From Nitrosospira sp. NpAV (GTDB lineage: Bacteria > Pseudomonadota > Gammaproteobacteria > Burkholderiales > Nitrosomonadaceae), in NCBI RefSeq assembly GCF_000832065.1, contig NZ_JXQM01000022.1:1-47939 (forward strand): a stretch of DNA of 47,939 nucleotides, read 5' to 3'. Below are positions 8,075 to 46,140 of the stretch, one piece after another. The translations under genes and the position numbers were made by a program. Each line of letters opens with the position of its first letter. Within the stretch, counting starts at the first letter, position 1. Below the pieces are notes generated by a model. That model worked only from the letters and a program-made list of their open reading frames with translations, searched no databases and had not been told where the DNA came from.

Positions 8075-8250
8075 GTGCTCACCTTTGGGTGGGGCCGTTA
8101 CAGCGCGAATGGCAAAGTTTTGATGGCACATGGTTGCGTTGTTCACAATGCCCTGGAATAGAGCGATTATTCCGTTTCTTGGTACCTTGTCCCACCCTAA
8201 ACACCGCGCACTTCACCCCGATAAACTATCGGATTCAGGATGATTTTATA
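8075..8250 (+). repeat. Dispersed leader repeat, copy upstream of sixA (long form)
   Basis: Begins with a hairpin CTCACC (8078-8083) / GGTGGG (8088-8093). It then has GGCACATGG, GTTGTTC, CCTGGAAT and ACCTTGT blocks shared with the copy at 30196-30363. It ends with CTTCACCCCG and the core AACTATCGGATTCAGGAT (about 8225-8242). The end lies about 20 bp before the sixA start, in the same direction. Confidence 0.75.
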
Positions 8251-8262
8251 AGGAGAGCAGAT

Positions 8263-8715
8263 ATGGAGCTCATTCTATGGCGTCACGCCGAAGCGGAAGA
8301 GGGTATACCCGATAGCGCGCGGGAACTCACGGACAAGGGATCAAAACAAGCGCGCGTTATGGCTGAATGGCTTAAGTCAAAGTTACCGAAGAATACCCGT
8401 ATCATAGTCAGTCCTACCAAGCGTACCCAGCAGACTGCGGCTGCGCTTGACGACAACTTCGAAACCGTCAGGACAATTGGGCCGGGTGTCTCCGCGAAAG
8501 CCATTCTTGCCGCCGCAGGTTGGCCAGATGCCAAAGGCGCGGTAGTGGTAGTGGGCCATCAGCCTACTCTCGGAGAAGTCGCGGCCTTCCTTATGTCAGG
8601 CGAGCCTGTGGCGTATAACATCCGGAAAGGTGCAGTATGGTGGTTTAGCAACAAGAAGAAGGGAGATGTGGCCGAAGTGGTCTTGCACACCAGCATTTCT
8701 CCGGATATGTTGTAG
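8263..8715 (+). CDS. sixA: Phosphohistidine phosphatase, SixA type
   Basis: A 150-residue protein from ATG 8263, which has AAGGAG 8 bp upstream. The frame is open further upstream to 8089, but that part is repeat sequence. The catalytic RHA motif is in LILWRHAEAEEG (His8), followed by VSPTKRTQQTA (second Arg of the pocket) and GHQPTLGE, the second conserved His of the histidine phosphatase superfamily. SixA dephosphorylates phosphohistidine on phosphocarriers; in E. coli it acts on the nitrogen-related PTS. The incomplete PTS at 31.3-33.7 kb could supply a substrate (inference). Confidence 0.9.
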   Translation: MELILWRHAEAEEGIPDSARELTDKGSKQARVMAEWLKSKLPKNTRIIVSPTKRTQQTAAALDDNFETVRTIGPGVSAKAILAAAGWPDAKGAVVVVGHQPTLGEVAAFLMSGEPVAYNIRKGAVWWFSNKKKGDVAEVVLHTSISPDML

Positions 8716-8759
8716 TTTTGTTCGCAGTGGCTTTCACGCTGTGCACTGGTGCATCCCTT

Positions 8760-11282
8760 TCACCGTTTCTTCACCAGACTGATCGACATCCAACGATCCC
8801 ATGCGCCGTAATGGTTGCGGATTGGGCCGAGCGGCAATGCGAGCAGGATCAATAATACGCCGGCAACAACGCTCGCTGCTCCCGCCAGGCCGGAATATCC
8901 TGTCAATAACCAGGGTGCCGCAATCAGCCATGCGCCGAATAAAATGTTGACAAAGCGCAGCGGCTGCGCCACCTCGCCCATCGCTATAATCGAGAAGGTA
9001 ACCACCAGCGCACCGGTCACATGATCGCTGTCGGCGGCCGCGCCTTCGGTATCGAAAATTACGCGCGTGAACATCAGTGCAATGCCAATAACAACACTGA
9101 CCCACATAGTCCACATAAAGATAACACCGCTGCGCATTATTTCACGCAGCACGGTCATGGGCGGCGCGTCAAAGCCGGCTGATTCATCGGTGCCGCCATT
9201 TTCCATAGCATCTCCGTGCCACAATACATGCCATACTGATTTCCCCTTTTGCCGCCGATCTTGCATGAACTGTAGCGTTGCCAGGATCTCATCGAGCGAG
9301 TAGGGAATCTGCAGCAGCATGGCTAACGACGCAATCAGGCATGCCGTACACCAGGTGCCGATGACGATGGGTTGGATAATGATGAAGTAAATACTGACCA
9401 CACCCAGCGGCACAATCAATATACCGAAGAACAGTACCATCCATGGCATGGTGCGCCAGCGCCGTTTGTCGCCAATGATACCCGTGACGATTTCCAGTAC
9501 ATAGACCATAGCGCCCAGGCCTGCATCCGCCACCGGCCATGCTTCTGATACTTCGGAAGTAACAATGCGCACGGTTCCATCGTCAAAGAACGGATCCCAG
9601 GCATTCTCAATATGGCCCAACTGGAATGCAGCCATATAACGTGAAAGAAACAGGCCCACAAATGCGAGCGCCACGACGGCAATTCGTTGAATCATTGTGG
9701 ATGGGTTGCCATTCCAGCCTGGCGGGGCATCCGGCCCTGTCATCCGGGCGATCGGGCTGACGCCAGGCGCTGGCGGTATGCCCACCGCAAAAAGAATGAC
9801 GAGCATCCCAATCAAGGTGTCATTCGCATATGCTGCCGCGCCCGAAGTCCAGAAAATGAGCGGGGCGAACAACAGCCAGACGCCTAGAAGCGCTGTGATC
9901 CAGCGAGCCCAGCCATAATCGCGTGCTAATGATAGCAAGCCGAAAATGATGATCAGCAAGCCCGTGGCGACATCACTTGCTGTCATCCAGGTGGAGGATA
10001 GCGCCAGCCCGCGCTGTGTGGGTGTAGTGAGTTCCGTGGGTACCATCCAGGATTCCGCAAACCCTAAGATGAACGGACTCGACGCCAGCCACAAGCCCAG
10101 TGCGACGTTGGCAAAATGGCACCACAGGGTTTGCATGTGTTCGCTATGTTCCTGTCTACGGTTTTCGTCAATCAATGTCGAACTTGGAATAGGGCTATCC
10201 TCAATATCTTCAAGCCATCGCGGCAAAGGGATTTTGTTGCGCCTATACCAAGCTCCCGGGCTATTTTTTAGGTGACCGACAATTTTTGGCAGTGTTTCTC
10301 GCAGCGTATGCCTGGGTCGCCAATTCAACAGTTTCCTGGCGCGTGAAATGTCCAGTTCGAAATGGTCGTCCGACAAGGCCACCATGAATGGTTTGACGAA
10401 GGGCTCAATGCCGCGATCAATGGCATCGGGGACGACATCTTCCATTCTGTTCTGCAACCATGCGCCGGCAATCGCAACTGTCTTTGGAACCTGGTGCGTA
10501 CTCCAGGCTTCACCATGAATCAGTTGCCCCATCAAATTCTGTAGCTCTTCATAGCTTTCGGTGATCGGGTCGCCAATTAGCATCGTGACTTCGTCAGGCA
10601 AACCTGCACGCCGCTCGATTGCTTGGAGAAACGCGCGTGCCACGTCATCCAGATGCACGAATGATTGTCCGTGCGATATGTTGCCGGGGAATACATGGCT
10701 CTGCATTTGTCGCTCATAAATCCGCTGGAGCTGGTTGGCCAGCGATGGCACTTCACCCCAATCGGTATAGACTCCGGCCAGTCGAAATATCACCATCGGT
10801 ATGCGTCCGTGGTGTAGACGGACCTCATTTTCCGCAGCCACCTTCGATTGCGGATAAGGCCACTTGGGTTCAAGCGGTCCTTCCTCGTTGATGGGCAAAC
10901 CCGGCTTGGTAGGCGCGTGCACCAGCATGGTGCTTGCGTAGATGAATTGCCCGACCTCGAACGCTTGCAGGGCCTTCAGCAGGCGCTGTGTTCCCTGAAC
11001 GTTGACTTTATCGTACAAAGGATTGGGTTCATCGGAGAAATCATAAAAGGCGGCCAGATGAATGACGGATGCAATTCTTTGTCCGTAGCGCTGCCGCAAT
11101 TGCTCGCATGCACGGGACATTGCTTCATCTGACGAGATATCTGCACTAATGCAAGTATCATTATTGATGCATTCCTGCTCGAAACCGACAATCGCATAGT
11201 CATCACCCAGTGCGGCCGCGATTCCCTTGCCGATCCGGCCTTCTGAACCGGTGATGAGGACAAGTGGTCTTTCTGGAGACAT
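8760..11282 (-). CDS. Fusion protein: NAD-dependent epimerase + SPW repeats + VKOR-type domain
   Basis: An 840-residue protein. Residues 6-335 are an extended-SDR epimerase-like domain with TGSEGRIGKG (NAD site, 11-20) and YPQSK (catalytic Y143, K147). Residues about 385-500 hold membrane helices with an SPW repeat (GLWLASSPFILGF). Residues about 530-665 form a VKOR-like four-helix part with WCTAC (C645, C648), preceded by SEAWPVADAGLGA. A second SPW unit (GAWLIAAPWLL) is near 782-793, followed by a final helix. The second, loop cysteine pair of classical VKOR enzymes is not seen. It would place a cytoplasmic epimerase next to a membrane thiol oxidoreductase; its substrate is unknown. Start ATG 11282 gives MSPERPLVLITG, a normal SDR N-terminus. 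Confidence 0.85.
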   Translation of the reverse strand: MSPERPLVLITGSEGRIGKGIAAALGDDYAIVGFEQECINNDTCISADISSDEAMSRACEQLRQRYGQRIASVIHLAAFYDFSDEPNPLYDKVNVQGTQRLLKALQAFEVGQFIYASTMLVHAPTKPGLPINEEGPLEPKWPYPQSKVAAENEVRLHHGRIPMVIFRLAGVYTDWGEVPSLANQLQRIYERQMQSHVFPGNISHGQSFVHLDDVARAFLQAIERRAGLPDEVTMLIGDPITESYEELQNLMGQLIHGEAWSTHQVPKTVAIAGAWLQNRMEDVVPDAIDRGIEPFVKPFMVALSDDHFELDISRARKLLNWRPRHTLRETLPKIVGHLKNSPGAWYRRNKIPLPRWLEDIEDSPIPSSTLIDENRRQEHSEHMQTLWCHFANVALGLWLASSPFILGFAESWMVPTELTTPTQRGLALSSTWMTASDVATGLLIIIFGLLSLARDYGWARWITALLGVWLLFAPLIFWTSGAAAYANDTLIGMLVILFAVGIPPAPGVSPIARMTGPDAPPGWNGNPSTMIQRIAVVALAFVGLFLSRYMAAFQLGHIENAWDPFFDDGTVRIVTSEVSEAWPVADAGLGAMVYVLEIVTGIIGDKRRWRTMPWMVLFFGILIVPLGVVSIYFIIIQPIVIGTWCTACLIASLAMLLQIPYSLDEILATLQFMQDRRQKGKSVWHVLWHGDAMENGGTDESAGFDAPPMTVLREIMRSGVIFMWTMWVSVVIGIALMFTRVIFDTEGAAADSDHVTGALVVTFSIIAMGEVAQPLRFVNILFGAWLIAAPWLLTGYSGLAGAASVVAGVLLILLALPLGPIRNHYGAWDRWMSISLVKKR

Positions 11283-12100
11283 GCAATTTTCCGATTCAAA
11301 TCGCGATGGACGGTTCCCAGGCGCTACGGTGAATTAAGCTTGAATCCGGCGGTTGACCGCTCATAGGTGGCGTTATGATCGACAGAGATTCTTTGCGCTT
11401 ACTCGGCCTTCACCTTTTGAGTAAGCTTGCTCCCGGCGGATTTGGTTAAAAGGATAAAGGTGAGGAATAATCATGGTCGGTACGGTAAGCCACACACACA
11501 GAGAGAGGGTATGTAGTCATCAGCTATAAGAACATCTTCTTATGCAGGTCGATCCTGTCGGATATTTTCTGAATCGTGACGAGATGAGTGCTTTGTGTCG
11601 TCAACATACAGGTCGTGTACAATAAGAACGTAATCTCGCACAACTGGGGCGATCATCGACCATTCATTGCCGCAGACACACAGCAATAAGCCATTCAGTA
11701 CGCTACCCAATGAAAGGGTCTTCAAATTTATAACACTTGTCCATTTCATATTGAACCCAGATAATCCATTAGGTCGCTCTCTGAGCCTACCCAAATGCGG
11801 GCGGTTGGTTTGTGGCAAAACTGCCTCGCCTTCATCTCGCGTCCTGATGGATTACCTGGGTTGAAGTAAAGAGGACCGCCGTACTGTATGCGGTTCACTG
11901 CTGAAATCTTTTAGCCTCCTATGTGCCGGCTTCAATGCATCCACCTTCTTGATCCCGCGGGCAGGAAATACAAACGTCATACCGGACGAAGCCCGTGTCC
12001 CATGGCGTTCTAAATTTGTCCCTGCCGGTTGGCCACTCATTCTCTCGACTTTCTCAGCATCGCACCACATGATCCATAACGACTTTCCGCCGCAACTTAA
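11283..12100. other. Non-coding or decayed spacer before kup
   Basis: No reading frame here has a convincing product, start site or family motif. Around 11398-11460 there is a 7-bp inverted repeat, CTTACTC (11398-11404) and GAGTAAG (11419-11425), around TTCACCTTTT. It is followed by CGGCGGATTTGG and AGGATAAAGG, reminiscent of the dispersed leader repeat but degenerate. No gene follows it directly, so it may be a relic. The remainder looks like decayed sequence. Confidence 0.5.
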
Positions 12101-12148
12101 CTTCACCTTGTTGGTGAGTTCACCACCCCTACGGGATTCGGGATCATG
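12101..12148 (+). repeat. Dispersed leader repeat, short copy at the kup start
   Basis: Hairpin TCACC (12103-12107), loop TTGTT, GGTGA (12113-12117), then CACCCC and CTACGGGATTCGGGATC directly joined to ATG 12146. It has the same order and direction as the copies before sixA and gshB. Confidence 0.65.
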
Positions 12149-14044
12149 ACCGGCGAAAATACCGGGATGAAAACAACAGCCGGCCACCACCCTCTGGGCG
12201 TTCTAAGCCTGGCCGCACTGGGCGTGGTCTACGGCGACATCGGTACGAGTCCTTTATACGTCATGAAGACGGTTTTCGATCCCATCTACGGGCTTGCTGT
12301 CAGCGAGGACAATATAATCGGCATAATCTCGCTTATTTTCTGGGCGATCATGATTGTAGTGTCGCTCAAATACATAACGTTGATCCTGCGCGCGGACAAC
12401 AAGGGGGAGGGCGGCATCATGGCGTTGCTGTCGCTCGCCAGTTCTTCGGTCGCAAATCATCCGCGACTGCGCAATATGCTGTTTCTCATCGGTGGCTTTG
12501 GTGCGGCGCTGTTTTATGGCGATGGGGTTATTACACCGGCCATTTCTGTGCTGAGTGCCGTGGAAGGGCTGGAAGTGGCTACCCCGTTACTCAAGCCGTA
12601 CGTGGTACCCATCACGTTGACTGTGCTGATCGCACTTTTTGTAATCCAGCAGCGGGGAACCGGGGGAATCGGCGCCATGTTCGGGCCGATCACGCTGATA
12701 TGGTTCAGTACGCTCGCCCTTGCCGGTCTCGCCAATATTAGCGCCGCGCCGCAGATATTGGCGGCGCTAAATCCGGTTCATGCCATCGCCTTTTGCCTAA
12801 GCAATGGGTGGCTGGCATTCGTTGCCTTGGGTGCCGTGGTACTCGCGATTACGGGTGGAGAGGCACTCTATGCGGATATGGGACACTTCGGCGCCAAACC
12901 CATCCGCTTTGCCTGGTATGGATGTGTGCTGCCAGCGCTAACCTTGAATTATCTCGGGCAGGGAGCGCTGCTGCTCTCCAATCCGCTAGCGATTTCCAAT
13001 CCTTTTTATCTTTTGTTTCCCGTCTGGGCGCTTTATCCGGCTGTAGGACTGGCGACCGTGGCTACCGTCATCGCATCGCAAGCCGTTATCTCCGGCGTTT
13101 TTTCCATGACCAAGCAGGCCATCCAGCTTGGATTTCTGCCTCGCATGCAGATAAAACATACCTCGGATCGAAAGATCGGTCAGATATATATTCCTTTCGT
13201 CAATTGGACACTGCTTGCAGCGGTGATCATGGCGGTGCTGGGCTTTGGTTCATCCTCCAGTCTCGCATCCGCGTATGGTTTTGCCGTGACTGCCACGATG
13301 GTCATTGAGACACTGCTTACTTTTTTCGTACTCCGCTACGCCTGGAAATACTCCTGGTTTTTAGCCGTTCTTGCGACAACCATTTTTATCGCCATCGACA
13401 TGACATTTTTTGCGGCTACCACTCTGAAACTTGCCCAGGGCGGGTGGTTTCCGCTGATAATCGGGGTAATAATTTTTACCATTATGGCTACCTGGCAGCG
13501 CGGACGTCAAATCCTGTTCGAGAACTTGCGCTCGGCGGCTATTCCGCTCCAGCCGTTTCTGGAATCGCTGATGGCGCACCCCCCGACGCGCGTCGCCGGT
13601 ACATCGATCTTTTTGACCGCCGATTTAGATGGAGTGCCTCATGCGCTACTGCATAATCTTGCACATAACCAGGTTTTGCATGAGCGGGTGGTATTTTTGA
13701 CGGTGGCTCTTTTGGAAACCCCTCGCGTTCTTAAAGACCAGCGAGTATCCGTAAAGCCATTAGACAATAACTGCTACCAGATTACTGTCCGTTACGGTTT
13801 CAAAGACGAACCCAATCTGCCCTACGCACTTGAATTGTGCCAGGCACATGGACTTGTATTCGAGCCGCTACAAACATCCTACTTTCTTAGCCGCCAGATT
13901 GTCGTACCGAGTTCCGGTGCCGGCATGGCTTTGTGGCGGGAACGGCTTTTTGCAGCGATGATCCGCAATGCCAGCAACGCGGCTGAGTACCTTAAGCTAC
14001 CCGCTAACCGGGTTCTCGAACTGGGAGCACGGGTTGAGATCTAG
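12146..14044 (+). CDS. kup: Low-affinity potassium transporter Kup
   Basis: A 632-residue membrane protein with about twelve helices and a C-terminal cytoplasmic domain, the usual Kup size. Signature regions are GVVYGDIGTSPLYV near the N-terminus, KADNKGEGG-like RADNKGEGGIMALL, FFYGDGVITPAISVLSA-like LFYGDGVITPAISV, and GGEALYADMGHFG. It imports K+ in symport with H+. The start is uncertain: ATG 12146 lies in the end of a repeat, and ATG 12167 (MKTTAGHHPLG) is an alternative. It stands alone between a spacer and the opposite-strand GGDEF-EAL gene. Confidence 0.96.
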   Translation: MTGENTGMKTTAGHHPLGVLSLAALGVVYGDIGTSPLYVMKTVFDPIYGLAVSEDNIIGIISLIFWAIMIVVSLKYITLILRADNKGEGGIMALLSLASSSVANHPRLRNMLFLIGGFGAALFYGDGVITPAISVLSAVEGLEVATPLLKPYVVPITLTVLIALFVIQQRGTGGIGAMFGPITLIWFSTLALAGLANISAAPQILAALNPVHAIAFCLSNGWLAFVALGAVVLAITGGEALYADMGHFGAKPIRFAWYGCVLPALTLNYLGQGALLLSNPLAISNPFYLLFPVWALYPAVGLATVATVIASQAVISGVFSMTKQAIQLGFLPRMQIKHTSDRKIGQIYIPFVNWTLLAAVIMAVLGFGSSSSLASAYGFAVTATMVIETLLTFFVLRYAWKYSWFLAVLATTIFIAIDMTFFAATTLKLAQGGWFPLIIGVIIFTIMATWQRGRQILFENLRSAAIPLQPFLESLMAHPPTRVAGTSIFLTADLDGVPHALLHNLAHNQVLHERVVFLTVALLETPRVLKDQRVSVKPLDNNCYQITVRYGFKDEPNLPYALELCQAHGLVFEPLQTSYFLSRQIVVPSSGAGMALWRERLFAAMIRNASNAAEYLKLPANRVLELGARVEI

Positions 14045-14180
14045 CAGCCTGTGGGACTCAAAGGAGATGAAATAGACTCCAAAGGTCGAATGTAAAGCCT
14101 CGGGCCGGTTCATATTTCGCTACGGGGTTCAAGAAACCGGTTTGCGGAACTCGTGTCGTGGACGCAAATGAAGGTTAATT

Positions 14181-16613: not shown

Positions 16614-16762
16614 GGCTAAGTTCTCAGATCACGGCGTTCGCCCATGAGCGAGATCGTGACACGTTATGAGGTCGATTCTGGTGCGTGATATCAACCATTA
16701 TTCAGTATAGATTCATTATTGGAATGTTGTTTTTCGAGCTGCCGGTTCATCCTCGCGGTGAA

Positions 16763-19332: not shown

Positions 19333-19366
19333 GGCGCGAGTGGTAGTATTAAATAAAAAATGAGGG

Positions 19367-19390
19367 TCAACCGCCGGATGTAGGATGAAT
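19367..19390 (+). repeat. Dispersed leader repeat, core copy upstream of apaH
   Basis: CAACCGCCGGATGTAGGATG matches the core of the repeat. It lies about 52 bp before the likely apaH start (19442), in the same direction. The long upstream part is absent. Confidence 0.55.
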
Positions 19391-27623: not shown

Positions 27624-27662
27624 AAAAATAAAAAAGGCGAAGTCACATCATATGACCTCACC
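27624..27662 (-). terminator. Intrinsic terminator of the glycine riboswitch expression platform
   Basis: Read on the minus strand, GGTGAGGTCA pairs with TGACTTCGCC over 10 bp (with G-T pairs) around a 7-nt loop, followed by TTTTTTATTTTT. It directly follows the second aptamer and precedes gcvT. It would stop transcription when glycine is low, if this is an ON switch as in known cases. Confidence 0.85.
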
Positions 27663-27862
27663 CCTCTGTCCTTTTTACCTGAGAGATTACGGATTGTCTA
27701 TTCCGCGTGCCCCTTCGGTGGCCGGATATAATGCCAGCACTCTCCAGATTGCCTGTCGCAAGCGGTTCTTAAGGGATCAAGATCGATCTGATCTACGCCT
27801 GAGCGATTCCGGGGGGTTGCGCCTTCGGCGGCGACGATGAAACCGGCGCGCTCTTCCGCTTG
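27661..27862 (-). promoter_or_regulatory. Tandem glycine riboswitch upstream of gcvT
   Basis: The minus strand has two glycine aptamers in order. The first has GGAAGAGCG, GCCGAAGGCGCAA and ATCGCTCAGGC; the second has CTGGAGAGTGCTGGC, CACCGAAGGGGCA and ATCTCTCAGGTAAAAAGGAC. The paired GGAGAG/CTCTCAGG ends and CCGAAGG cores are the known glycine riboswitch signature. It lies in the gcvT leader, the classical location, and is followed by an intrinsic terminator. Confidence 0.95.
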
Positions 27863-27912: not shown

Positions 27913-28272
27913 GGTAAATAGCGTGCTAAAAGTACCCCTTCCTCGATAGGAATCAGGAAATTCTGCATTTATAGTAATATCTTATTCAGAGCAATGGAAC
28001 CCGGAAAAGGATTTTTATGCTGCTCAGAGAAGATGCCGCTCTTTTCCGAACGATAGGCAGAGATATGAGCCGCCGCGACAGACAGCAAGTGAACAGAATA
28101 GCACCAGACATCTTGCATGGCGATGTAGAGCCCGGCTAAGACCGCCTGCGAACTTACCGGCAGATTTCTGAACTCAAGAGGTATCGGTCCTAATTCGATG
28201 GTTGGCCGCTCATTTTTTACTTAATTCTTAGCCTGGGCTATGACAAATAAACACTATGCGGATTATTTGACT
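27913..28272. other. Intergenic region between gcv promoter and ExeA-like gene
   Basis: No supported gene. One 40-codon frame (28017-28139) has no recognisable similarity or clear ribosome site, so it is not called. No further structure was recognised. Confidence 0.4.
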
Positions 28273-28319
28273 TTTGCCTGTGTGGTGAGTCCTCTACAAC
28301 TGCCGGATTAGGAATAATG
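28273..28319 (+). repeat. Dispersed leader repeat, short copy at the ExeA-like gene start
   Basis: GTGGTGAGT (right arm of the 5' hairpin in other copies) then CAACTGCCGGATTAGGAATA joined to ATG 28317. AGGA could act as the ribosome site. Same direction as the gene. Confidence 0.6.
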
Positions 28320-29898: not shown

Positions 29899-30195
29899 TT
29901 CAATATTCACGGGTTACGCCAACACGTGATGCTACAATGTAAATTACTAGTAAATATCATCTTTATGCAGATCCGTGCCTGAGCTTGCCGCCGTTCTGAA
30001 TGACCCGATCTTAAATTTGGAAAGATACGGCATGTTGCTGATTCCGGAAAGTAACCCGTGCTTAACGAGCACACGTCGCCCGGTGCCGTACGAAATAGCC
30101 CATCAAATGCGGAGATTTAGCTGTGTTTGCAATATGCCTGAATCCTGCTCATTTGTCGGTCTAGCATTATGATTCGTAGGGAATCTAAGTGCCAT

Positions 30196-30363
30196 TTGAT
30201 TCTCACCTTTTGGGTGAGTCCGCGACGGGACGGCTTAGACGGTTTTGCGGCACATGGCTCGTTGTTCGCGCCTTGGAATGGGGCACCGCAGCGTCGTTGC
30301 GCCTTGCCTTGTACCCTGGAAACCCGGCATTTTACCCCTCCCAGCCACCGGACTTGGCATAAA
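30196..30363 (+). repeat. Dispersed leader repeat, long copy upstream of gshB
   Basis: Hairpin CTCACC (30202-30207), loop TTTTG, GGTGAG (30213-30218). Then come GGCACATGG, GTTGTTC, CTTGGAAT, CCTTGTACCC and TTTTACCCC blocks in the same order as the sixA copy, ending with CCACCGGACTTGGCATAA against ATG 30363. The part 29900-30195 before it holds no supported gene. Confidence 0.75.
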
Positions 30364-35392: not shown

Positions 35393-35404
35393 GAACCGCA
35401 GTGT

Positions 35405-37202: not shown

Positions 37203-37225
37203 GCTTCATCGCTTCGGTGAAAATC

Positions 37226-37573
37226 TCATTCTACTGGGTAGCCCAGCACCCGCTCCAATTCGTGGATGCGCTTCTTCAGCTCCCGGACCTCGGCCGCAGA
37301 CACGATGGCATCATCGCTGCGCGCTGCTTCCTGTCCTCCTTCAGCCATGAGTTTTCTCCAGCGGGATAATAAAGTGGGAGCAACACCATATTTCCGCGCT
37401 ACATACGAGACACTCACTCCCGGCAACCGGGATTCTTCAACAGCTTTCAATTTCTCACCCAGGCTCCAGCGCCTGCGGTGCTCAACTGTGAGGACCACTT
37501 CGATGCGATCAAAACCAGACGCGCCATGCCTAGTACTAGGCGTATGCCTATCTCTTATTATTAGTGCATCCAT
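37226..37573 (-). pseudogene. IS3-family transposase OrfA (helix-turn-helix), truncated end
   Basis: A 115-residue frame with GFDRIEVVLTVEHRRRWSLG then LPGVSVSYVARKYGVAPTLL (helix-turn-helix) and VRELKKRIHELERVLG, the start of the OrfA leucine zipper. It then shifts into YPVE and a stop, where relatives continue GKKTxEVEILKEAL. An out-of-frame continuation (EIFTEAMKLAHEEN) is visible just after, which confirms a frameshift. Confidence 0.85.
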
Positions 37574-37580
37574 GCCCGAT

Positions 37581-37733
37581 TCAATTGAAAGCTGCTACAC
37601 GGCCAGCTTCGAAGCAATGTTGGCCGATCTGGCCGCGTGGGTGACTCCGATGGTTCAGGATCAGTGCGCGCCTCCAGGGCTTAAAAATATTGGCCGGCAA
37701 CTGTCCGTCGTTCCAACCCTCGTTCTTCGTCAT
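37581..37733 (-). CDS. Candidate small protein of 50 residues inside the duplicated region
   Basis: ATG 37733 has GAGGAA 8 bp upstream and gives MTKNEGWNDGQLPANIFKPW and then RRALILNHRSHPRGQIGQ, ending at TGA 37581. A related frame exists in the second copy of the direct repeat (40325-40474), where the encoded words NDxxLxANIxKxW and LNHxxHPxxQIG recur. There the ATG is ATA. A shared peptide pattern in both copies suggests real coding, at least ancestrally. It is divergent from the LysR gene. Function unknown; it may also be the relic of a longer gene. Confidence 0.4.
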   Translation of the reverse strand: MTKNEGWNDGQLPANIFKPWRRALILNHRSHPRGQIGQHCFEAGRVAAFN

Positions 37734-37835
37734 GATGATTTCCTCGAAATTTCCAGAGTGGAATCATCCACTGCTTTTTATATAGAATAAAGACTATTTT
37801 TTGGATAACATTGCTCTGTCAATGGAGCAATTAGT
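37605..37835 (+). repeat. Imperfect direct repeat R1, copy 1 (promoter side of LysR gene)
   Basis: About 230 bp matching 40345-40573. Shared blocks include TGGTTCAGG, AATATTGGCC, TTTCCAGAGTGGAATCATCC, TTTATATAGAATAAAG and TTTTTTGGATAACATTGCTC. It contains the small frame at 37581-37733 and the palindrome next to the LysR start. Confidence 0.85.
37810..37831. promoter_or_regulatory. Probable LysR-type operator upstream of the LysR gene
   Basis: ATTGCTC (37810-37816), 8-bp spacer, GAGCAAT (37825-37831), 4 bp before the LysR ATG. The dyad with T and A at the arms is of LysR-box type. In copy 2 of the repeat both arms are identical while the spacer has changed. Confidence 0.6.
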
Positions 37836-38723
37836 ATGGAATTTTTGAATGACATGGCCCTGTTCGTAGAAGTTGTCAAGGCCAAGGGCTTTCGTGGTGC
37901 TGCCGACACCATCGGAATGCCGAACTCAACCCTGTCGCGACGGATCAGTACGCTGGAGAAGACGATTGGGCTGCGCCTCTTGCATCGCACAACTCGCAAG
38001 ATCGAGCTAACTGAGGCTGGTCAGATTTATTACGAGCGCTGCAAGCGCATCGTCGATGAAGCCAGGCTTGCGCACGAACAACTTGGCGAAATGCTCGCAC
38101 AGCCCAGCGGCGTACTGCGCGCTTCGCTGCCTGTGGATTTTGCCATCGCCTACATGGCGCCTTTGGTCGCCGAGTTCGCAAGCCTCTATCCCGGTATCAC
38201 CTTCGATTTCGATCTCACATCACGGCGGGTCGATCTGGTGAGCGAGCCTTTCGACGTGGCGATCCGTATAGGAGAGCTTGAGAATTCACAACTGATTGCG
38301 CGTCCACTGGCTGCGCTCCCTGCGTACCTTTACGCTTCGCCCCGTTATCTCGACCGCTTGGGAGAACCTGCCGAGCCTGCTGATCTGGAGCGCCATGAGT
38401 GCCTTGGCATCCTGAAGGCTGGTGCGTGGACACTGCACGATGGGACGCATACCACCAAAGTTTCTATTGGTGGCCGGTTTACGCTCAACAGTGTCGGCAT
38501 GATTCGCCGCCTGGCAACACTCGACATGGGCATCATCATGATGATGGAGGCAATTGTCGCCGATGATCTTGCCAGCGGGCGGTTGCGTCGCATCCTGCCC
38601 AAATGGCATGGCGCTCCGATATCCGTCTACGCCGTCACTGAGACTCGGTTATTGCCTGCAAAGACACAGCGCTTCATTGAGTTCCTACAGGAGCATCTGG
38701 GGCAAGGTTTAACAGGAGGTTGA
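37836..38723 (+). CDS. LysR-family transcriptional regulator
   Basis: A 295-residue protein with an N-terminal winged helix (MEFLNDMALFVEVVKAKGF, then AADTIGMPNSTLSRRIS and LEKTIGLRLLHRTTRKIELT) and a C-terminal effector domain (LRASLPVDFAIAYMAPLVAEF, FDVAIRIGEL, GRLRRILPKW). It belongs to the CrgA/AaeR-like subgroup judging from the RHECLGIL-type and ISVYAVTETR ending. It probably regulates itself and the divergent or downstream genes. The likely target, the outer-membrane transporter gene at 39263-40189, is broken. Confidence 0.94.
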   Translation: MEFLNDMALFVEVVKAKGFRGAADTIGMPNSTLSRRISTLEKTIGLRLLHRTTRKIELTEAGQIYYERCKRIVDEARLAHEQLGEMLAQPSGVLRASLPVDFAIAYMAPLVAEFASLYPGITFDFDLTSRRVDLVSEPFDVAIRIGELENSQLIARPLAALPAYLYASPRYLDRLGEPAEPADLERHECLGILKAGAWTLHDGTHTTKVSIGGRFTLNSVGMIRRLATLDMGIIMMMEAIVADDLASGRLRRILPKWHGAPISVYAVTETRLLPAKTQRFIEFLQEHLGQGLTGG

Positions 38724-38750
38724 AATTTCCCCTGATGCCGTCGGCTAGCC
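38708..38750 (+). repeat. Repeat R2, copy 1, at the LysR 3' end
   Basis: TTAACAGGAGGTTGAAATTT spans the LysR stop codon. The same sequence with one change, followed by TGATGCC and GGCTA, occurs at 40207-40250, so the second copy looks like the relic of another LysR 3' end. Confidence 0.7.
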
Positions 38751-39262
38751 GCCAGCGGATTTCGCTCTATGCCGTATTCAGCCGCTAGCGTTTTTCAAGT
38801 ACATGCCACGTCGTGCGCCCATCGATGGCACTATTGGGGATCTTCGGCGCCACATGTGGCGTCACGCGTCGGCCGAGCATGGCAAAAAGACGAACTGGAC
38901 CATGTCATAATTCCTGTCCGCTTCCAAAGTCGAACCTCGTTTGATCAAGCGCTCCACCGTGCCAGTGACCAGTGCGGTTCTCCATCAGGGAGCATGGCTC
39001 AGGCTTCGATCAGAGTGTCATCCACCGTGAAATGCTCCGAGGATACCAGCCCCTGCCATTCCGATACCTGAACATCGCGGCTTGGGTGGCGTCGGCACAT
39101 CGCATGGAATCCTCTATTTTATCGAATTCAACAGGTCCTAATTATACCACCTGCATGAATCGATTTGCCGTGTAGCATGGAAAATCCATCCGCCCGGGAG
39201 TGGCTGTTCACTTTGGTGGACGTCAATATTGATAAAGTTTTCCGCGCGTTAGTGCCTGAGCA
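38751..39262. other. Decayed region after the LysR gene
   Basis: No intact gene. One plus-strand frame around 38972-39110 has protein-like composition (SIREHGSGFDQSVIHREML) but no family match that I recognise and no start. It probably holds relics of an accessory gene. Confidence 0.4.
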
Positions 39263-40189
39263 TTAGAAGGGCATGATCAACCTCAACCAGGCCGTGTAAC
39301 CCTGGAAACGATTCTTGACGTGCATTTCATGCTGCCACTGTGCAATGAATATCGTTCCGGTCGGGCTATTGTAGCTCGCGCTGGGCCCGATCGCGAACAC
39401 TTCGCCTTTGCGCCCAGAGGACCATGGGCCGAACGCCGACGAGATTGTCTGCCCATCGAGTTTGTCGTTGGTCGTCTGCTTTAGGTAATAGCCCGAAAGT
39501 CCGACGCCCCACGGGCCTAAACGTTTGCCAACAAGAAAGTCAATGTGGAATTCGTCACCGGACGCGTAGTCCATTTTTGGTTCACCTATGGCGGAGCGAA
39601 ACTCCTTATTCTTGCTCTTGATGTTATACATGAACTTGCTGGAGATCTCCCAACCTTTTTCAGAGAGCCAGGTTACCGCGAAGAGTGGTTAGATGCTCCA
39701 GTAATTGGTGCCGATGCTCTTACGCGGATCGCCAGCCTTATACTGGCCGGTGGGCATGCGAATATCCAGTGCCGCTACCCAGTGCCAGTTACCCAAATGC
39801 CAGACCAGGCTGGCCGGACTAATGGTTATATCACCTAGACCTACGACTGAGGAGGCATGGTCTCCGAGCTTCATCCTTTGATGCACTATCGGCACGATGA
39901 TGTGCACACCGTAGTTGCCCCCCAGAATACGCATTTCGGTGATGTGAATAAGGCGGAATGCGTTGAACCAGGCGCTGACTGCGGCCGCGGCCTTGTCGCC
40001 GTCGCCATTGTGCAGGGTGCCGTTGTAGTGACCGAGATAGTTGAGGAAGTGGTTGCCCGGCGATGGCGCCGCGCCCGCCAGCCAGTTTTCGGCACCGTTC
40101 GGATACTGATCGTTGCCTTCCTTGGCAATTGTGTCCCCCGCAGCCAGCTCCAACAAGGCCAGCGCAAGGCCGAACAGCTTGATGTTCAT
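39263..40189 (-). pseudogene. Outer-membrane transporter of the SphA / MetA-phenol-degradation type, frameshifted
   Basis: The first part (39689-40189) has a signal peptide (MNIKLFGLALALLELAAGDT), ENWLAGAAPSPGNHFLNYLG and DITISPASLVWHLGNWHWVAALDI, and stops at GTNYWSI*. In the next frame the protein goes on as PLFAVTWLSEKGWEISSKFM (about 39633-39687) and continues to 39263 with GDEFHIDFLVGKRLGPWGVG and a final LRLIMPF. The whole would be about 305 residues, the usual length of this beta-barrel family (MetA-pathway of phenol degradation). One frameshift or stop near 39688 breaks it. Confidence 0.8.
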
Positions 40190-40206
40190 GCTTCCCTCTT
40201 GATGCT

Positions 40207-40250
40207 ATTAACAGGAGATTGAAATTTCCGTGATGCCTTTGGCTACCAGC
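40207..40250 (+). repeat. Repeat R2, copy 2 (relic of a LysR 3' end)
   Basis: TTAACAGGAGATTGAAATTT followed by CCGTGATGCCTTTGGCTACC, matching the end of the LysR gene and its flank at 38708-38750. There is no LysR coding sequence before it. Confidence 0.6.
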
Positions 40251-40344
40251 TGGTAAATGGCAGTGATTGGATTCGATAAGCCCATTGCCGGGGATGAAAT
40301 TCGGATTTCCGGCGCTTTTTTGGCTCATTTGGAGTCCTGGTCGT

Positions 40345-40573
40345 TTTCCGGCCAGTCTTGGAGCAGTCGCCCAATCTGGTCGCATGGGTGACCCGGATGG
40401 TTCAGGTTTGGTGCGCACTTCCAGAGCTTGCAAATATTGGCCAGCAGCCATTCGTCGTTCTTGTTCTTCTTTATGATGATTCCTCCAAATTTCCAGAGTG
40501 GAATCATCCACTGTTCTTTATATAGAATAAAGGCCATTTTTTGGATAACATTGCTCCATTGATAGAGCAATTT
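40345..40573 (+). repeat. Imperfect direct repeat R1, copy 2
   Basis: Diverged second copy of 37605-37835. The copy ends with the LysR-type palindrome and an ATG at 40574, but no LysR frame follows. The minus-strand small frame is preserved from 40474 to 40325 (KNKNDEWLLANICKLW, then LNHPGHPCDQIGRLL), its start codon replaced by ATA. Between this and the next gene (40574-40823) I see nothing coding. Confidence 0.8.
40550..40571. promoter_or_regulatory. Second copy of the LysR-type palindrome
   Basis: ATTGCTC (40550-40556), spacer CATTGATA, GAGCAAT (40565-40571). The arms are identical to copy 1 and the spacer is different. Confidence 0.5.
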
Positions 40574-40823
40574 TATGAAAATGATTTGCGCGGCTTCAAG
40601 ACTTGTCCAGCTGCGGTGCAAATAAAAACTTACCCAGAGCCTCTCGCGGGCAGCCAGCCTGATGAAATCGTAGCTTTCCCGCAACGTTGTTCTCCCTTTG
40701 CAAAAAGAGACACGCTTTACTTGATTGCATTTAAAACTCTCGCTAGAGTCTTCCATGCCTGCATCTCGCCTTTCCGTAGCTGCATTCCTTATCGTGCTTT
40801 GATTACTCGGATTGGGACCTGCG

Positions 40824-41042
40824 ATGACTACGATAACAACCATTTACGTACCTCTTCTCGATGAGGGTACCGGGAGGTCACCACCTTCGATAGTGGCACA
40901 CCCAGCCAGACGCATTCTTGTCGTCGGGTTGCAGAAGCCTGAATCAAAGCGCATCATCGAAGCATGGCGACGCGACTATAATGCTCCTAGCGAATACGTT
41001 AAAACGTTAAATCCAACCAGGTCAGACAGAGAAGCTCCATGA
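40824..41042 (+). CDS. Possible small protein upstream of the HugZ-like gene
   Basis: A 72-residue frame from ATG 40824 whose stop overlaps the next start as ATGA. The N-terminus TTIYVPLLDEGT resembles a widespread family of small proteins with this opening, but the rest (ARRILVVGLQKPESKRIIEA) does not follow it. It may be a fusion or frameshifted relic, or a genuine gene coupled to its neighbour. Confidence 0.35.
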   Translation: MTTITTIYVPLLDEGTGRSPPSIVAHPARRILVVGLQKPESKRIIEAWRRDYNAPSEYVKTLNPTRSDREAP

Positions 41043-41734
41043 ATAATGCGCGCGCAGCCCGTCGGATGTTGCGCACTCACCGCTACGGTGTCTTGAGTAC
41101 CTTGTCGGAGAAGTTCGATGGCCATCCGTTCGCCTCGATTTTGTACTATCTGGTGGACCACGACGGCAGCCTGCTTATCCTTATCAGCATGTTGGCGGAA
41201 CATACTAAAAATATCCGCCATGACGCTCGTGTAAGCCTTCTTACACATGATCACAGCGACTTGAACATCCAGTCCCAAGGGCGCGTCACGGTGGTGGGGA
41301 CGGCCCAACCTGTGGAGGACAACCTCCGTATTGCTGTGCGCTATCTGCGCTATTTTCCGGAAGCGGAAACCTATCTCGCCATGCGCGATTTCTCTTTCTA
41401 TCGCATCGTTCCGCAGACACTGCGCTACATTGGCGGTTTCGGTAAGATTCATTGGGTCTCGGCGGCCAGCTATCTGGTGCCGGCTTATCCGTTGATTGGG
41501 CAGGAGGACGATGTCATTGCGCATATGAATGCGGATCATCGCGATACTTTGCGCCGATACTGTGAACATTTTCACCAATGCGTGGCATTGGATGTCGAAA
41601 TGTTGGGGATCGACTGCGACGGTTTCGATATACGCGCCGATGGCAGGCATCTGCGTATCGATTTTGAGGAGATGGCATTCGACGCGCAGCAGGCTCGACA
41701 TGCCTTGGTTGAAATGGCGCTAAGAACGAGATGA
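41039..41734 (+). CDS. HugZ-like protein (PNPOx-type split barrel plus DUF2470)
   Basis: A 231-residue protein with an N-terminal flavin-reductase-like split barrel (ARAARRMLRTHRYGVLSTLS, HPFASILYYLVDHDGSLLIL, HTKNIRHDARVSLL) and a C-terminal DUF2470 domain with HMNADHRDTLRRYC. This is the HugZ/HutZ arrangement of heme-degrading or heme-binding proteins. Activity on heme is not shown by sequence alone. It starts by ATGA overlap with the small frame before it, and is followed by a leader repeat and metW. Confidence 0.9.
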   Translation: MNNARAARRMLRTHRYGVLSTLSEKFDGHPFASILYYLVDHDGSLLILISMLAEHTKNIRHDARVSLLTHDHSDLNIQSQGRVTVVGTAQPVEDNLRIAVRYLRYFPEAETYLAMRDFSFYRIVPQTLRYIGGFGKIHWVSAASYLVPAYPLIGQEDDVIAHMNADHRDTLRRYCEHFHQCVALDVEMLGIDCDGFDIRADGRHLRIDFEEMAFDAQQARHALVEMALRTR

Positions 41735-41754
41735 CTCTGATTTCAATCGCAATC

Positions 41755-41878
41755 CGGCCACTGGGTGAGACGGAGGATGCGGTCCATGGGGTGTGGAGCA
41801 AGGCATTGCACGCAGCCATGTGCAGTAAAAACTGCGTACTTCACCCCGTTCGACTACCAGATTTAGGATAATATATTC
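41755..41878 (+). repeat. Dispersed leader repeat, copy upstream of metW
   Basis: Contains GGGTGAG, GGTCCATGG, GCGTACTTCACCCCG and the core GACTACCAGATTTAGGATAAT-like end (last base near 41872). It ends about 35 bp before the metW start, in the same direction. The last 40 bp are nearly identical to the sixA copy. Confidence 0.75.
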
Positions 41879-41910
41879 GCCAACGAATACATCCCGCAAA
41901 TATTGAAGAC

Positions 41911-42522
41911 GTGACCAGCACTGCTACCCCATACACTGCCACCCGGCCCGATTTTGCCGCCATTGCCGCATGGGTGAAGCCCGGTGCAAAGGTGCTCGAT
42001 TTAGGTTGCGGCGATGGCTCGCTCCTATGTTTCCTGCGCGATGCGCGCAACATTCATGGCTATGGAGTGGAAATCGACGATGACAATGTCCTTGCGTGCT
42101 TCAATAATGGAGTCAATGTGATTCAGAGTGATCTGGAATCCGGGCTGCTGAGCTTCGAATCGGGATCGTTCGATTATGTGGTTCTCTCGCAAACGTTGCA
42201 AGCGGTAAAACACACCGAGGGAATCATCAGGGAAATGTTGCGCGTAAGCAAGGAGGGGATTGTGTCGTTTCCTAATTTTGGCTACTGGAAAAACCGGCTA
42301 CAGGTGATGTCTGGTCACATGCCTGTTTCGGAAACGCTACCTTATCAGTGGTTCGACACACCTAACATTCACAACTGTACACTCGGCGATTTTGAAGAGT
42401 TCTGCAGTCAGCATGGCGCGCGTATTCTTGAGCGCAGGGTAATGAGTGGAGATCATCAAATCACGTTCCTGCCCAACTTACTGGGGACGTTGGCATTTTA
42501 TCGGTTTGAGCAGCAAAAGTAG
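41911..42522 (+). CDS. metW: Methionine biosynthesis protein MetW
   Basis: A 203-residue methyltransferase-fold protein starting at GTG 41911. It has KVLDLGCGDGSLL (SAM-binding), YGVEIDDDNV, DYVVLSQTLQAVKH and SFPNFGYWKNRLQ then GHMPVSETLPYQWFDTPNIH, characteristic of MetW. MetW partners with MetX in homoserine acylation; the two are normally adjacent. Here it is 6.7 kb downstream of metX, with insertion material between. It converges with the AmpG-like gene, 9 bp apart. Confidence 0.95.
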   Translation: MTSTATPYTATRPDFAAIAAWVKPGAKVLDLGCGDGSLLCFLRDARNIHGYGVEIDDDNVLACFNNGVNVIQSDLESGLLSFESGSFDYVVLSQTLQAVKHTEGIIREMLRVSKEGIVSFPNFGYWKNRLQVMSGHMPVSETLPYQWFDTPNIHNCTLGDFEEFCSQHGARILERRVMSGDHQITFLPNLLGTLAFYRFEQQK

Positions 42523-42531
42523 CCATCAGAA

Positions 42532-43920
42532 TCACTTGGCATGCGCCTGGGAATCCGCTGTCTCGAATTTTGCCTGTCCCGCCAGCCATACCAATACCAA
42601 TACCGGAAGGCCGAGTAACGCCGTGCCGGTAAAAAAACTGGCGTAACCGTAAGCATCGACGAATTCGCCGCTGAACCCGGCGATAAACTTTGGCAATAAC
42701 AGCATCACCGAACTGAACAACGCGTATTGTGTGGCAGAGTAGGCGGAATTCGTCAGACCAGAAAGATAGGCTATAAAAGCGGAAGAAGCGATGCCGGCGG
42801 ACAGATTGTCTGCGGAAATGGTGAATATGAGGCCGGTTATATCGTGACCGCGCCCGCTTAGCCAGACAAATAGCAAATTGGTTGCCGCAGACAATACCGC
42901 TCCCAGAAACAATGTGCGCATGACCCCGATTTTTGCCGTGAGCACTCCGCCGATGGCTGCACCGGCAATCGTCATGATGACCCCATAGATTTTGGATATT
43001 GTTGCCACTTCATCCTTGGTGTAACCCATATCCACGTAAAAAGGATTGCTCATTACACCCATCACCACATCCGAGATGCGATAAAGTGCGATCAATGCCA
43101 GAATTACCAGCGCTTGCCGACCATGACGCACAATAAAATCCCGGAAGGGCGCAATCATTGCTCCATATAGCCAAGCCAGTGTTTGCGCGAGTCGTACGTT
43201 CAAATTCCAGTGTGCAATGACCTCCCGGGCATGGCCTTCATTTTCGGCGATGAGACGCGTGACAGGAACTTCCGGCTCGCGAATGATAAGCGTGGTGATA
43301 ATGCCCACAGCCATGCATGCGGCCATCGCCAGATAGGCAGTGCGCCACGGCGCATAGTCATAACTGGCTTCCGAAGGGTCTACCGCCGCGGCTATCCACA
43401 ATACGCCAGCGGAAGCCAGGATCATGGCCACACGATAACCTGCCTGATAAGTGGCGGCCATGGCCCCTTGGAGTCTGGGTGCTACCGCTTCGATTCGATA
43501 GGCGTCCAGCGCGATATCCTGAGTAGCGGATGCGAAAGCGACAGCAAGGGCAAAAAAAACCATATACGTCAAGTTCTCGATCGGATCGGTACTTGCCATA
43601 CCGGCAAGCGCGATGGCGATAACAATTTGCGAGAGTAATAGCCACGCGCGCCGCCGGCCTAGAATACGGGTTAATATCGGCAATGAGAGACGATCCACCA
43701 GCGGCGACCACAGCCATTTGAAGCCATATGCCAATCCGATCCAGCTCAAGTGACCGATGGTGGAGCGGTCGATGCCCGCTTCCCTTAACCAGAACGATAA
43801 AGTGCCCAGTATCAACAACAGCGGCAATCCGGCAGAAAAACCGAGTGACAGCATCCCCAACACCCGTGGATGGGTGTAAATGCGAAAAGCATGTAGCCAA
43901 CCGGATAAGGCAGTGGACAT
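42532..43920 (-). CDS. AmpG-like muropeptide MFS permease
   Basis: A 462-residue protein with 12 to 14 membrane helices. LGFSAGLPLLLILGTLSFWLREAGI at the N-terminus, SWIGLAYGFKWLWSPLVDRL, GRRRAWLLLSQ and SATQDIALDAYRIE are AmpG family signatures. It imports anhydro-muropeptides for cell-wall recycling. Its ATG lies inside a leader-repeat core. It converges with metW. Confidence 0.92.
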   Translation of the reverse strand: MSTALSGWLHAFRIYTHPRVLGMLSLGFSAGLPLLLILGTLSFWLREAGIDRSTIGHLSWIGLAYGFKWLWSPLVDRLSLPILTRILGRRRAWLLLSQIVIAIALAGMASTDPIENLTYMVFFALAVAFASATQDIALDAYRIEAVAPRLQGAMAATYQAGYRVAMILASAGVLWIAAAVDPSEASYDYAPWRTAYLAMAACMAVGIITTLIIREPEVPVTRLIAENEGHAREVIAHWNLNVRLAQTLAWLYGAMIAPFRDFIVRHGRQALVILALIALYRISDVVMGVMSNPFYVDMGYTKDEVATISKIYGVIMTIAGAAIGGVLTAKIGVMRTLFLGAVLSAATNLLFVWLSGRGHDITGLIFTISADNLSAGIASSAFIAYLSGLTNSAYSATQYALFSSVMLLLPKFIAGFSGEFVDAYGYASFFTGTALLGLPVLVLVWLAGQAKFETADSQAHAK

Positions 43921-43960
43921 TATCCTAGGTCCGGCATTCGGGCGAGACGGCTATACCGTA
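43918..43960 (-). repeat. Dispersed leader repeat, short copy at the AmpG-like start
   Basis: On the minus strand GTCTCGCCCGAATGCCGGAC then CTAGGATAATG, in which ATG is the start codon of the AmpG-like gene. Same orientation as the gene. Confidence 0.6.
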
Positions 43961-43989
43961 AGAGGAAGGATCAACTATCGAATACAGGG

Positions 43990-44763
43990 TCATAGGCTGT
44001 AATCATAGTCGATGGTGAGCGGTGAATGATCGGAGAAACGCTCCTCCTTGTAAATCGAAACTTTAGTCGCCTTGGCCGCAATGTGCGGTGTCGCAATCTG
44101 ATAATCGATGCGCCAGCCTACATTCTTGGCCCAGGCTTGCCCTCGATTGGACCACCATGTGTATTGCTCAGGCTCGGCGTTGATTTGACGGAAAACATCG
44201 ACAAATTCAAGATCATCAAAAACTCCACTAAGCCAGATGCGTTCTTCGGGCAGAAACCCGGAGTTTTTCTGATTGGAGCGCCAGTTCTTCAGATCGATTT
44301 CCTTGTGAGCGATATTCCAGTCACCGCATAATATGATCTCCCTGCCGCAACCCGCGAGTTCTTTGAGCATGGGGAGGAATCGCTCAAGGAAAAAGAATTT
44401 GGCAGCTTGCCGATGCTCACCACTGGAGCCGGAGGGAAAATAGATTGATACTATAGTCAATGGGCCAAAGTCAGCGCGTAGAAAGCGCCCTTCCGCATCG
44501 ATCTCCGCAATGCCAAGACCTTCGATGATATTGTCGGGCTTTTGCCGGCTGTAAATACCTACTCCGCTGTATCCCTTCTTTTCAGCGCAGTGGAAATAAC
44601 CATGGTAGCCATCGGGTGACAACATTTCTCCCGTGATGTCGGTCTTCTGAGCTTTCAATTCCTGCACACATACGATATCGGCCCCCTGCATCGGCAGCCA
44701 CCGGAAAAAACCCTTGCTTGTGGCAGAGCGCACTCCGTTCAGGTTAAGCGTTATAATTCTCAC
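43990..44763 (-). CDS. xth: Exodeoxyribonuclease III
   Basis: A 257-residue EEP-fold nuclease with [28 protein letters not shown] (metal Glu), [24 protein letters not shown] (Asp/Asn) and a final [10 protein letters not shown] (Asp-His pair). It acts as AP endonuclease and 3' repair exonuclease. It is divergent from pyrE, with 29 bp between the starts. Confidence 0.95.
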
Positions 44764-44792
44764 GTCTATTTTTTCCAGTTGGTCATGTAGAG

Positions 44793-45467
44793 ATGTCCGA
44801 TTTCCGGCAGGAATTCATTGAATTTGCCATTGACCGTAGTGTGCTGTGCTTCGGCGAATTTAAAACTAAAGCGGGACGGCTGTCGCCATATTTTTTCAAT
44901 GCGGGGTTGTTCAACGACGGCGATTCTCTTCGGAAACTGGGGCAATTTTACGCCAAAGCCATTCGTGATGCCCGGCTTCCGTTTGATATGCTATTTGGTC
45001 CCGCCTACAAGGGCATCCCGCTGGTAAGTGCTATCGCCATTGCGCTGGCCGAGAACGGGGATAACTACCCCTTCTGTTTCAATCGTAAAGAAGTAAAGGA
45101 TCACGGCGAAGGAGGAAATCTCGTGGGCGCCCCCCTTGCCGGACGTGTGCTGATTGTTGACGACGTCATTTCTGCCGGTATTTCAGTGCAGGAATCCGTC
45201 GGCCACATTCAAGCTTCTGGTGCCATACCTTGTGGCGTCATTATTGCACTTGACCGGATGGAGCGCGGTAACGGAGAACTTTCCGCTACGCAGGAAGTTC
45301 ATCATGCCTGCGGAATTCAGGTTGCCAGCATCGTTAATCTGGATGACATTGCAAATTATCTGCGGGACAGAAAGAGTCTGCGACACAATCTTCAGGCGAT
45401 AGAAAGCTACCGTGCACAATATGGGGTCCCTGACCCTGGAGAACTCCGGAGTGGGCACGTACTATAG
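44793..45467 (+). CDS. pyrE: Orotate phosphoribosyltransferase
   Basis: A 224-residue protein with [47 protein letters not shown] and the PRPP motif [13 protein letters not shown]. It makes OMP from orotate in pyrimidine synthesis. The xth-pyrE pairing is common in betaproteobacteria. Confidence 0.97.
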
Positions 45468-45508
45468 CAGACGGGCAAACCATTCAATAACCATTCAATA
45501 ATTGAAGG

Positions 45509-45982
45509 TCAAGGCATCTTCTCCGGTGGTAGGGTCGACAACGTAATTTCTCCTTTCGAATCGAAGCGGCGCCCGATGGCAAATCCCTGTCCGCCAAGGT
45601 GGCCACGCAAGTGATAATCGGCCTTGGTATGATCGCCAGCGGCCAGTCCAAAGGCATGACGGATAATTGTTGTCGCCGGCACTGTTACCGGCACCGTGAT
45701 GACCGCTTCTCCAAAGCGGGGTATCGTGCCCTGCTGATCGCTTACTCCACTCGCGAAGCTCATTCCGCGTAAATCCAGATCGAGCGCGACACCATCGTAA
45801 TCGAGGGGTCTGCCGTCATGATTCTGAATTCGGAGGTGGACCGCGAAGCGTGCCTCCATACCTCTCCCTTCCAGCGGCTCAACTCCAGCTAAAGAGACAC
45901 GAAGCGGCTCATGCATTCCTAGCGCTGCGCACCCGGATAAGAGGAAAGCGAATGCGTAAATAAGCAGTATGCGAGGGTTCAT
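45509..45982 (-). CDS. LEA14-like (LEA type 2) lipoprotein
   Basis: A 157-residue protein with lipobox FLLSGCAALG, then LRVSLAGVEPLEGRGMEARF and LRIQNHDGRPLDYDGVALDL, the WHy/LEA-2 domain pattern (N-x-[DN] step after a hydrophobic strand), ending EITLSTLPPEKMP. Function is unclear; such proteins are periplasmic or outer-membrane lipoproteins of stress type. A leader repeat ends about 38 bp upstream of its start. Confidence 0.85.
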   Translation of the reverse strand: MNPRILLIYAFAFLLSGCAALGMHEPLRVSLAGVEPLEGRGMEARFAVHLRIQNHDGRPLDYDGVALDLDLRGMSFASGVSDQQGTIPRFGEAVITVPVTVPATTIIRHAFGLAAGDHTKADYHLRGHLGGQGFAIGRRFDSKGEITLSTLPPEKMP

Positions 45983-46020
45983 CAGGGTACACCGGATTGT
46001 GAATCTGAAATCATAACTTG

Positions 46021-46140
46021 ATTATCCTAAATCCGGTAGTTGGACAGGGTGGCGTGTGCGATTTTGGAAGGCAGGGCAAGAGGATTTGGCGCTCTCAGAA
46101 TCAATGAGTGGAAATTCGTAAGGGAGTTTGTTTCGTGCGT
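46021..46140 (-). repeat. Dispersed leader repeat, copy between the LEA14-like gene and rnpB
   Basis: The minus strand reads ACGCCACCCTGTCCAACTAC then CGGATTTAGGATAAT (46021-46050), a near-consensus core, in the direction of the LEA14-like gene. The upstream part (to about 46140) is less similar to other long copies and overlaps the rnpB promoter region. Confidence 0.7.

Follow-up and report, generated by a model that had tools for sequence, protein, structure and literature searches.

The DNA analysed here, hereafter the window, is a stretch of 47,939 nucleotides of Nitrosospira sp. NpAV whose genes include sixA, kup, apaH, gshB and metW as well as genes for ExeA-like, AmpG-like and LEA14-like products. 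These names, assigned in an earlier sequence-only reading, agree with Pfam; for sixA (histidine phosphatase), apaH (metallophosphatase), the ExeA-like gene (AAA) and the AmpG-like gene (MFS) the agreement is broad only. The same reading listed a core sequence at eight places, one at each of these genes, and described every copy as directed at the gene start. The core does recur far more often than expected by chance: a 19-mer core has three matches with up to three mismatches in the window, compared with 0.02 expected, and in the whole genome (G000, a draft of 3.45 Mb in 315 contigs) CCGGATTTAGGATAAT has 85 matches with up to two mismatches and the longer form CTRCCGGATTTAGGATNAT has 141 with up to three, against none for the reversed control in either case. 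Scoring of the window with HMMs trained on copies from outside it recovered seven of the eight sites, the AmpG-like site being without an HMM match. Four of the sites (sixA, kup, exeA and gshB) belong to two-ended elements, three (apaH, metW and LEA14-like) are end fragments and the AmpG-like site is a candidate core only, while an element at 11339-11445 had been left off the list. Altogether the window contains five elements, three end fragments (weak at apaH) and one candidate core:

8008-8239 (232 bp), plus strand: complete long element (HMM), with the target duplication ATGAT at 8003-8007 and 8240-8244; sixA lies 23 nt past the right end.
11339-11445, plus strand: short element (HMM), absent from the earlier list; its left end lies 56 nt from the start of the minus-strand gene 8760-11282 and faces that start.
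12018-12142, plus strand: decayed short element (HMM); the kup ATG lies 3 nt past the right end; flank ATCAT.
19349-19384, minus strand: left-end fragment, weak HMM match (E 0.005); left terminal inverted repeat toward apaH.
28188-28313, plus strand: short element (HMM); the ExeA-like gene lies 3 nt past the right end; flank ATAAT.
30137-30358, plus strand: decayed long element upstream of gshB (HMM), not found in 22 of 22 relatives.
41804-41867, plus strand: right-end fragment upstream of metW (HMM), overlapped by an inverted match to the internal module.
43919-43934 (43918-43940 in the earlier list), minus strand: candidate core-like sequence where the AmpG-like gene begins, matching CCGGATTTAGGATAAT with two mismatches; no HMM match.
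46026-46080, minus strand: right-end fragment 5′ of the LEA14-like gene (HMM).

At the Rfam gathering score, the window has no match at the repeat and two elsewhere, namely a bacterial RNase P RNA of class A (46166-46469, plus strand, 244.5 bits), which lies roughly 90 bp from the LEA14-like right-end fragment (46026-46080), and a glycine riboswitch aptamer (27656-27757, minus strand, 54 bits). The window also holds a separate duplication of about 200 bp (37619-37832 and 40366-40572), made of two pieces 79% and 89% alike and 2.7 kb apart, and, near the contig end, an inverted repeat of 25 nt (47748-47772 and 47870-47894; 88% complementary, 97 nt apart).

The elements are bounded by CCTAAATCCGG paired with CCGGATTTAGG, left ends conforming to ATNATCCTAAATCCGG and right ends to CCGGATTTAGGATNAT, and the core stands at each end, pointing outward, with one core toward each neighbour. 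Among the first 59 merged stretches, which total 240 kb, 33 candidate pairs of facing ends were found 91 to 438 bp apart with up to four mismatches per end, the 438-bp pair having a poor right end. The terminal inverted repeats comprise 12 consensus pairs at the ends, five of which are changed on both sides. Short copies mostly measure 80 to 150 bp, with some outside this range; long copies of about 236 bp consist of the short form plus an internal foldback module, to which a further insert is added in 386-bp forms. The covariance-model search that the sequence-only reading had called for was carried out with a model, R1, built from 15 short copies, and gave at least 116 matches in the genome, at least 113 of them non-overlapping (a lower bound, 150 of 885 candidates having been scored). 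All measured copies are shorter than 400 bp, too short for a transposase, and both this length and the copy number are those of a MITE. Two elements in tandem, sharing a single ATTAT between them, lie at G000:C277:20833-21194.

The flanks of the elements form a 5-bp direct duplication of the pattern WTNAW. It is exact in 18 of 61 two-ended copies of the own genome (permutation mean 3.9, maximum 12, 10,000 permutations; a right end was called in 77 copies, of which 16 with more than four mismatches at an end were excluded), in 37 of 56 copies of the single-contig genome G094 (mean 7.5, maximum 19) and in 24 of 46 copies from other species (mean 3.4, maximum 12). Decay may explain why the other 43 own copies have no exact duplication. 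A 386-bp element of G094, together with one copy of its duplication TTCAA, is missing from the relative G113, leaving a clean empty site between flanks that are 91% identical. Among 29 comparable flank pairs, the net length is within 10 bp of zero in 12 and, in three of these, exactly -5; the putative empty sites other than that of G113 come from more distant relatives, and most of their junctions align only roughly. A 236-bp element is present in both members of one pair (G094:2637325 and its counterpart L319), and other pairs are likewise filled or uninformative. Within the 420 bp upstream of gshB, the element present in the own genome was not found in any of the 22 relatives. Filled and empty sites are thus seen between relatives, in one clean case, in several rough ones and at gshB. 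Near the gshB start of two relatives, G108 and G109, short stretches that the HMMs left unscored resemble decayed element ends and are perhaps independent insertions at the same place.

A larger element with one exactly matching end was found in G191, a genome from another family of the order. It is a 1,639-bp insertion sequence whose three copies are about 99% alike, with ends CCTAAATCCGGCAGTT and CCTATTTCCGGCAGTTGAC. The former is the MITE end with C at the variable position, exact over 16 bp; its scores against the two MITE ends, 28 and 27, lie above the highest values of 300 shuffles (24 and 20). The latter scores 23 and 19 (shuffled maxima 22 and 23) and by itself proves little. The MITE therefore has ends in common with an autonomous element, one exactly and the other more weakly. 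Duplications flanking the insertion sequence (tttat and ataaa) are exact in two copies; the third has either tttat/attat (four of five positions) or, counted from a second, tandem left end, attat/attat. These two tandem left ends (L388:1307-1390) lie 71 bp apart, as if the insertion sequence had inserted beside the end of another copy. Its product of 513 aa is IS1380-like, with 85 bits against PF13701 (cut-off 34.7) and 152.9 bits (9.8e-45) against the NCBIfam IS1380 model NF033539, below the 180-bit cut-off. Members of the IS1380 family, such as ISEcp1, have ends that begin with CC and generate AT-rich duplications of 4-5 bp. The presumed mobiliser has ends beginning with CC and a duplication of 4-5 bp, and the MITE resembles the family in its CC ends, its AT-rich 5-bp duplication and the PF13701 transposase of the matching insertion sequence; it differs in being too short for a transposase, and the matching transposase is divergent. 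In other Nitrosomonadaceae, insertion sequences encoding P0001 (549 aa) or its relatives have ends such as CCTATTTTCCTCAGTTGA, with CAGTTGA at the MITE's offset, and duplications ATGAA, ATCAA and TTTAT.

Other candidates for the mobiliser were set aside. Other PF13701 transposases of the family, checked at 30 plus 20 loci, show no pair of these ends; unpaired single matches to the 11-base end occur at L153 (exact) and at L155 and L261 (one mismatch each), and two loci, L143 and L144, have a different terminal inverted repeat with similar duplications (TTAAT and TTCAA). In the own genome, PF01609 has two matches, neither with a convincing pair of ends, and R1 detected no element in nine insertion-sequence loci. 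Searches of the own genome with PF13701 and P0001 gave no match; this draft is in 315 contigs, and the breaks between them could hide a copy. G094 gave no match to P0001 and two partial matches to PF13701, the one retrieved being without the terminal inverted repeat of the MITE. An IS1380-like insertion sequence of the G191 type is the likely kind of mobiliser, and we infer from the shared 16 bp at one end and the WTNAW duplications that an enzyme of this type moved the MITE. The earlier suggestion of a mobile repeat is borne out by the terminal inverted repeats, the 5-bp target duplications, the clean empty site and the matching insertion sequence.

R1 matches (E ≤ 1e-4) were obtained in 28 of 125 genomes of the family, some with one match only: 17 of the 23 genomes of the genus (own genome included), six of genus g4 and five of genus g3. 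An exact 28-base pattern retrieved 59 stretches from one collection of 84,980 species genomes, all in records labelled Nitrosospira, Nitrosovibrio or Nitrosomonadales except for one MAG labelled Nitrococcus, whose copy has a score identical to that of a Nitrosospira copy and may therefore reflect contamination. Median pairwise identity is 0.94 (236 bp) and 0.93 (386 bp) among the G094 copies and 0.59 among 45 short copies of the own genome. On these identities, the G094 copies are a young burst and the own short copies are old. A small element without genes has become widespread among ammonia-oxidising bacteria, probably through use of a larger element's enzyme.

Gene context was assessed with genes called by a simple hexamer caller in sampled DNA centred on the elements. 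Only five of the 113 own copies lie inside called genes, though 83% of the sampled DNA is coding, and element ends face the ends of genes as well as their starts. In gaps between genes of the same direction, it is the right end that points toward the start in 51 of 73 cases in the own genome (p = 0.0009; 49 of 71 when the window is excluded), in 25 of 43 in G094 (p = 0.36; sample of the best 61 of 96 non-overlapping matches) and in 23 of 37 in other species (61 of 100 matches, after removal of 24 opposite-strand duplicates, 11 matches cut by sequence ends and four duplicate records). Outside the own genome this amounts to 48 of 80 (p = 0.09), with no significant difference between own genome and rest (Fisher p = 0.24), and the pooled count is 99 of 153 (p = 0.0003), in a test that is not fully independent, as copies across species may have common ancestry. 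A strict orientation toward the gene start, as first described, does not hold: 22 of the 73 own same-direction elements are turned the opposite way, and two sites in the window, apaH and 11339, have the left end toward the gene start. What stands is a statistical preference, probably a real but modest effect. The core appeared always to point at a gene start largely because both element ends point outward; for two-ended elements, agreement in direction with the next gene is hardly informative, since the other end points the opposite way.

This preference could mean that a mobile element is kept in one orientation, rightward copies being tolerated or useful as leaders (in transcript processing, transcript stability or expression of the next gene) and wrong-way copies being purged over time. 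Besides the own and pooled counts above, this account draws on start distances in the own genome, where 39 of 57 right ends and six of 28 left ends have a start no more than 30 nt away (p = 6e-5; here and below, the counts cover copies with a recognised right end), and the lack of a significant bias among the young copies of G094 is what selection after insertion would predict. A hairpin in the internal region, too, occurs somewhat more often than mononucleotide shuffling would give (33 of 82 copies vs. 24%; mean folding z -0.55). However, the bias outside the own genome falls short of significance, and so does the distance asymmetry in the other two sets (10 of 32 right vs. four of 26 left ends, and 15 of 30 vs. 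eight of 17); nor does the bias rise steadily with decay (18 of 28, 25 of 31 and eight of 14 by score class, without a monotonic age trend). A hairpin conserved throughout the family was not found, most old copies being without it; the 236-bp consensus has no promoter scoring 9 or more, and a promoter scan around the sixA element gave one weak match on each strand, two in all where 0.5 would be expected. Such sorting by orientation is a possible but rather unlikely account of the repeat.

The two functions first proposed for the core fare worse. That it is a captured ribosome-binding site (AGGA) is suggested by the TAGG at the core end and by ten own right ends at which the first flanking triplet is the called start codon, ATG or TTG (flanks ATGAT in six, ATGAA in two and TTGAA in two). 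These abutting starts are, however, explained by WTNAW targets such as ATGAT, and TAGG is common to both ends, yet end-to-start distances in the own genome are spread from 0 to more than 150 nt. An AGG that abuts ATG is too close for the usual Shine-Dalgarno pairing, which counts further against this very unlikely proposal. Least credible, to the point of being nearly dismissed, is a common regulatory leader, or a regulon's binding site retained ahead of its genes; the core does stand before several well-known genes, and far above the reversed control, but a regulatory leader fits poorly with 5-bp duplications and a clean empty site, with ends that face the ends as well as the starts of genes and point outward on both sides, or with the absence of any Rfam match at the window's copies of the repeat. 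At gshB, where conservation before orthologues was tested, the copy is missing from all 22 relatives.

The repeat is almost certainly the terminal inverted repeat that bounds a family of MITEs, non-autonomous elements derived from, or cross-mobilised by, an IS1380-related insertion sequence. An IS1380-type transposase acting in trans would have moved the elements into WTNAW sites; insertions within genes would mostly have been lost, leaving survivors crowded in intergenic gaps, where one of the outward cores would by construction meet any neighbouring gene start. With ATGAT or TTGAA as target, the duplicated site itself could bring the start codon, so that the core abuts ATG, and the left end could likewise supply the stop codon of an upstream gene. 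Ten upstream genes do stop inside a left end, at fixed offsets of 18 nt (seven) or 5 nt (three), and on these gene calls the element therefore appears to supply these genes with a stop codon. Copies in the own genome have since decayed, and the mobiliser was not found there. Against this explanation, the evidence for the mobiliser comes from a different family of the order, and transposition alone does not account for the orientation preference. An extended version, which we consider doubtful, is that a MITE with start and stop codons in its target (ATGAT, TTGAA) inserts at gene junctions, rebuilding the start on the right and supplying stops on the left, and is over time retained mostly in the sense direction as an intercistronic spacer or leader for many unrelated genes.

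A description of this repeat family was not found in searches of open-licence papers. In its essentials it is a MITE; stop-codon donation is known for BOX and orientation-dependent transcript effects for ERIC. The Correia elements or NEMIS, a Neisseria MITE, are short, bounded by terminal inverted repeats, of two sizes (about 107 and about 155 bp) differing by an internal insert, and known from filled and empty sites (PMC2229807). The Nitrosospira MITE shares these traits, with related sizes arising through an internal insert; unlike Correia elements, which have TA termini, it has a 5-bp WTNAW duplication, and its terminal inverted repeat is unmatched to theirs. ERIC/IRU is a small element with TA termini and a 7-bp terminal inverted repeat whose orientation matters for neighbouring transcripts (PMC2229807); the Nitrosospira MITE is likewise a small element with terminal inverted repeats, known here from sequence alone. 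The TA at the termini of ERIC and Correia elements is replaced by ends of the form CC...GG with WTNAW flanks. Pneumococcal BOX can provide genes with a stop codon (36 CDS), and its terminal inverted repeat is similar to the one carried by ISSpn2, a transposon found in that species (PMC3049150). The Nitrosospira MITE is comparable in its ability to supply a stop codon and in the resemblance of its ends to those of a transposon, and differs in host, modular structure and mobiliser.

The analysis recasts an apparent gene-start motif as a MITE family with a likely type of mobiliser. Hits of motif searches in Nitrosospira on this core as a putative regulatory site should be discounted, and the more than 200 insertions of differing age in ammonia oxidisers offer a natural set for testing whether selection sorts elements by orientation.
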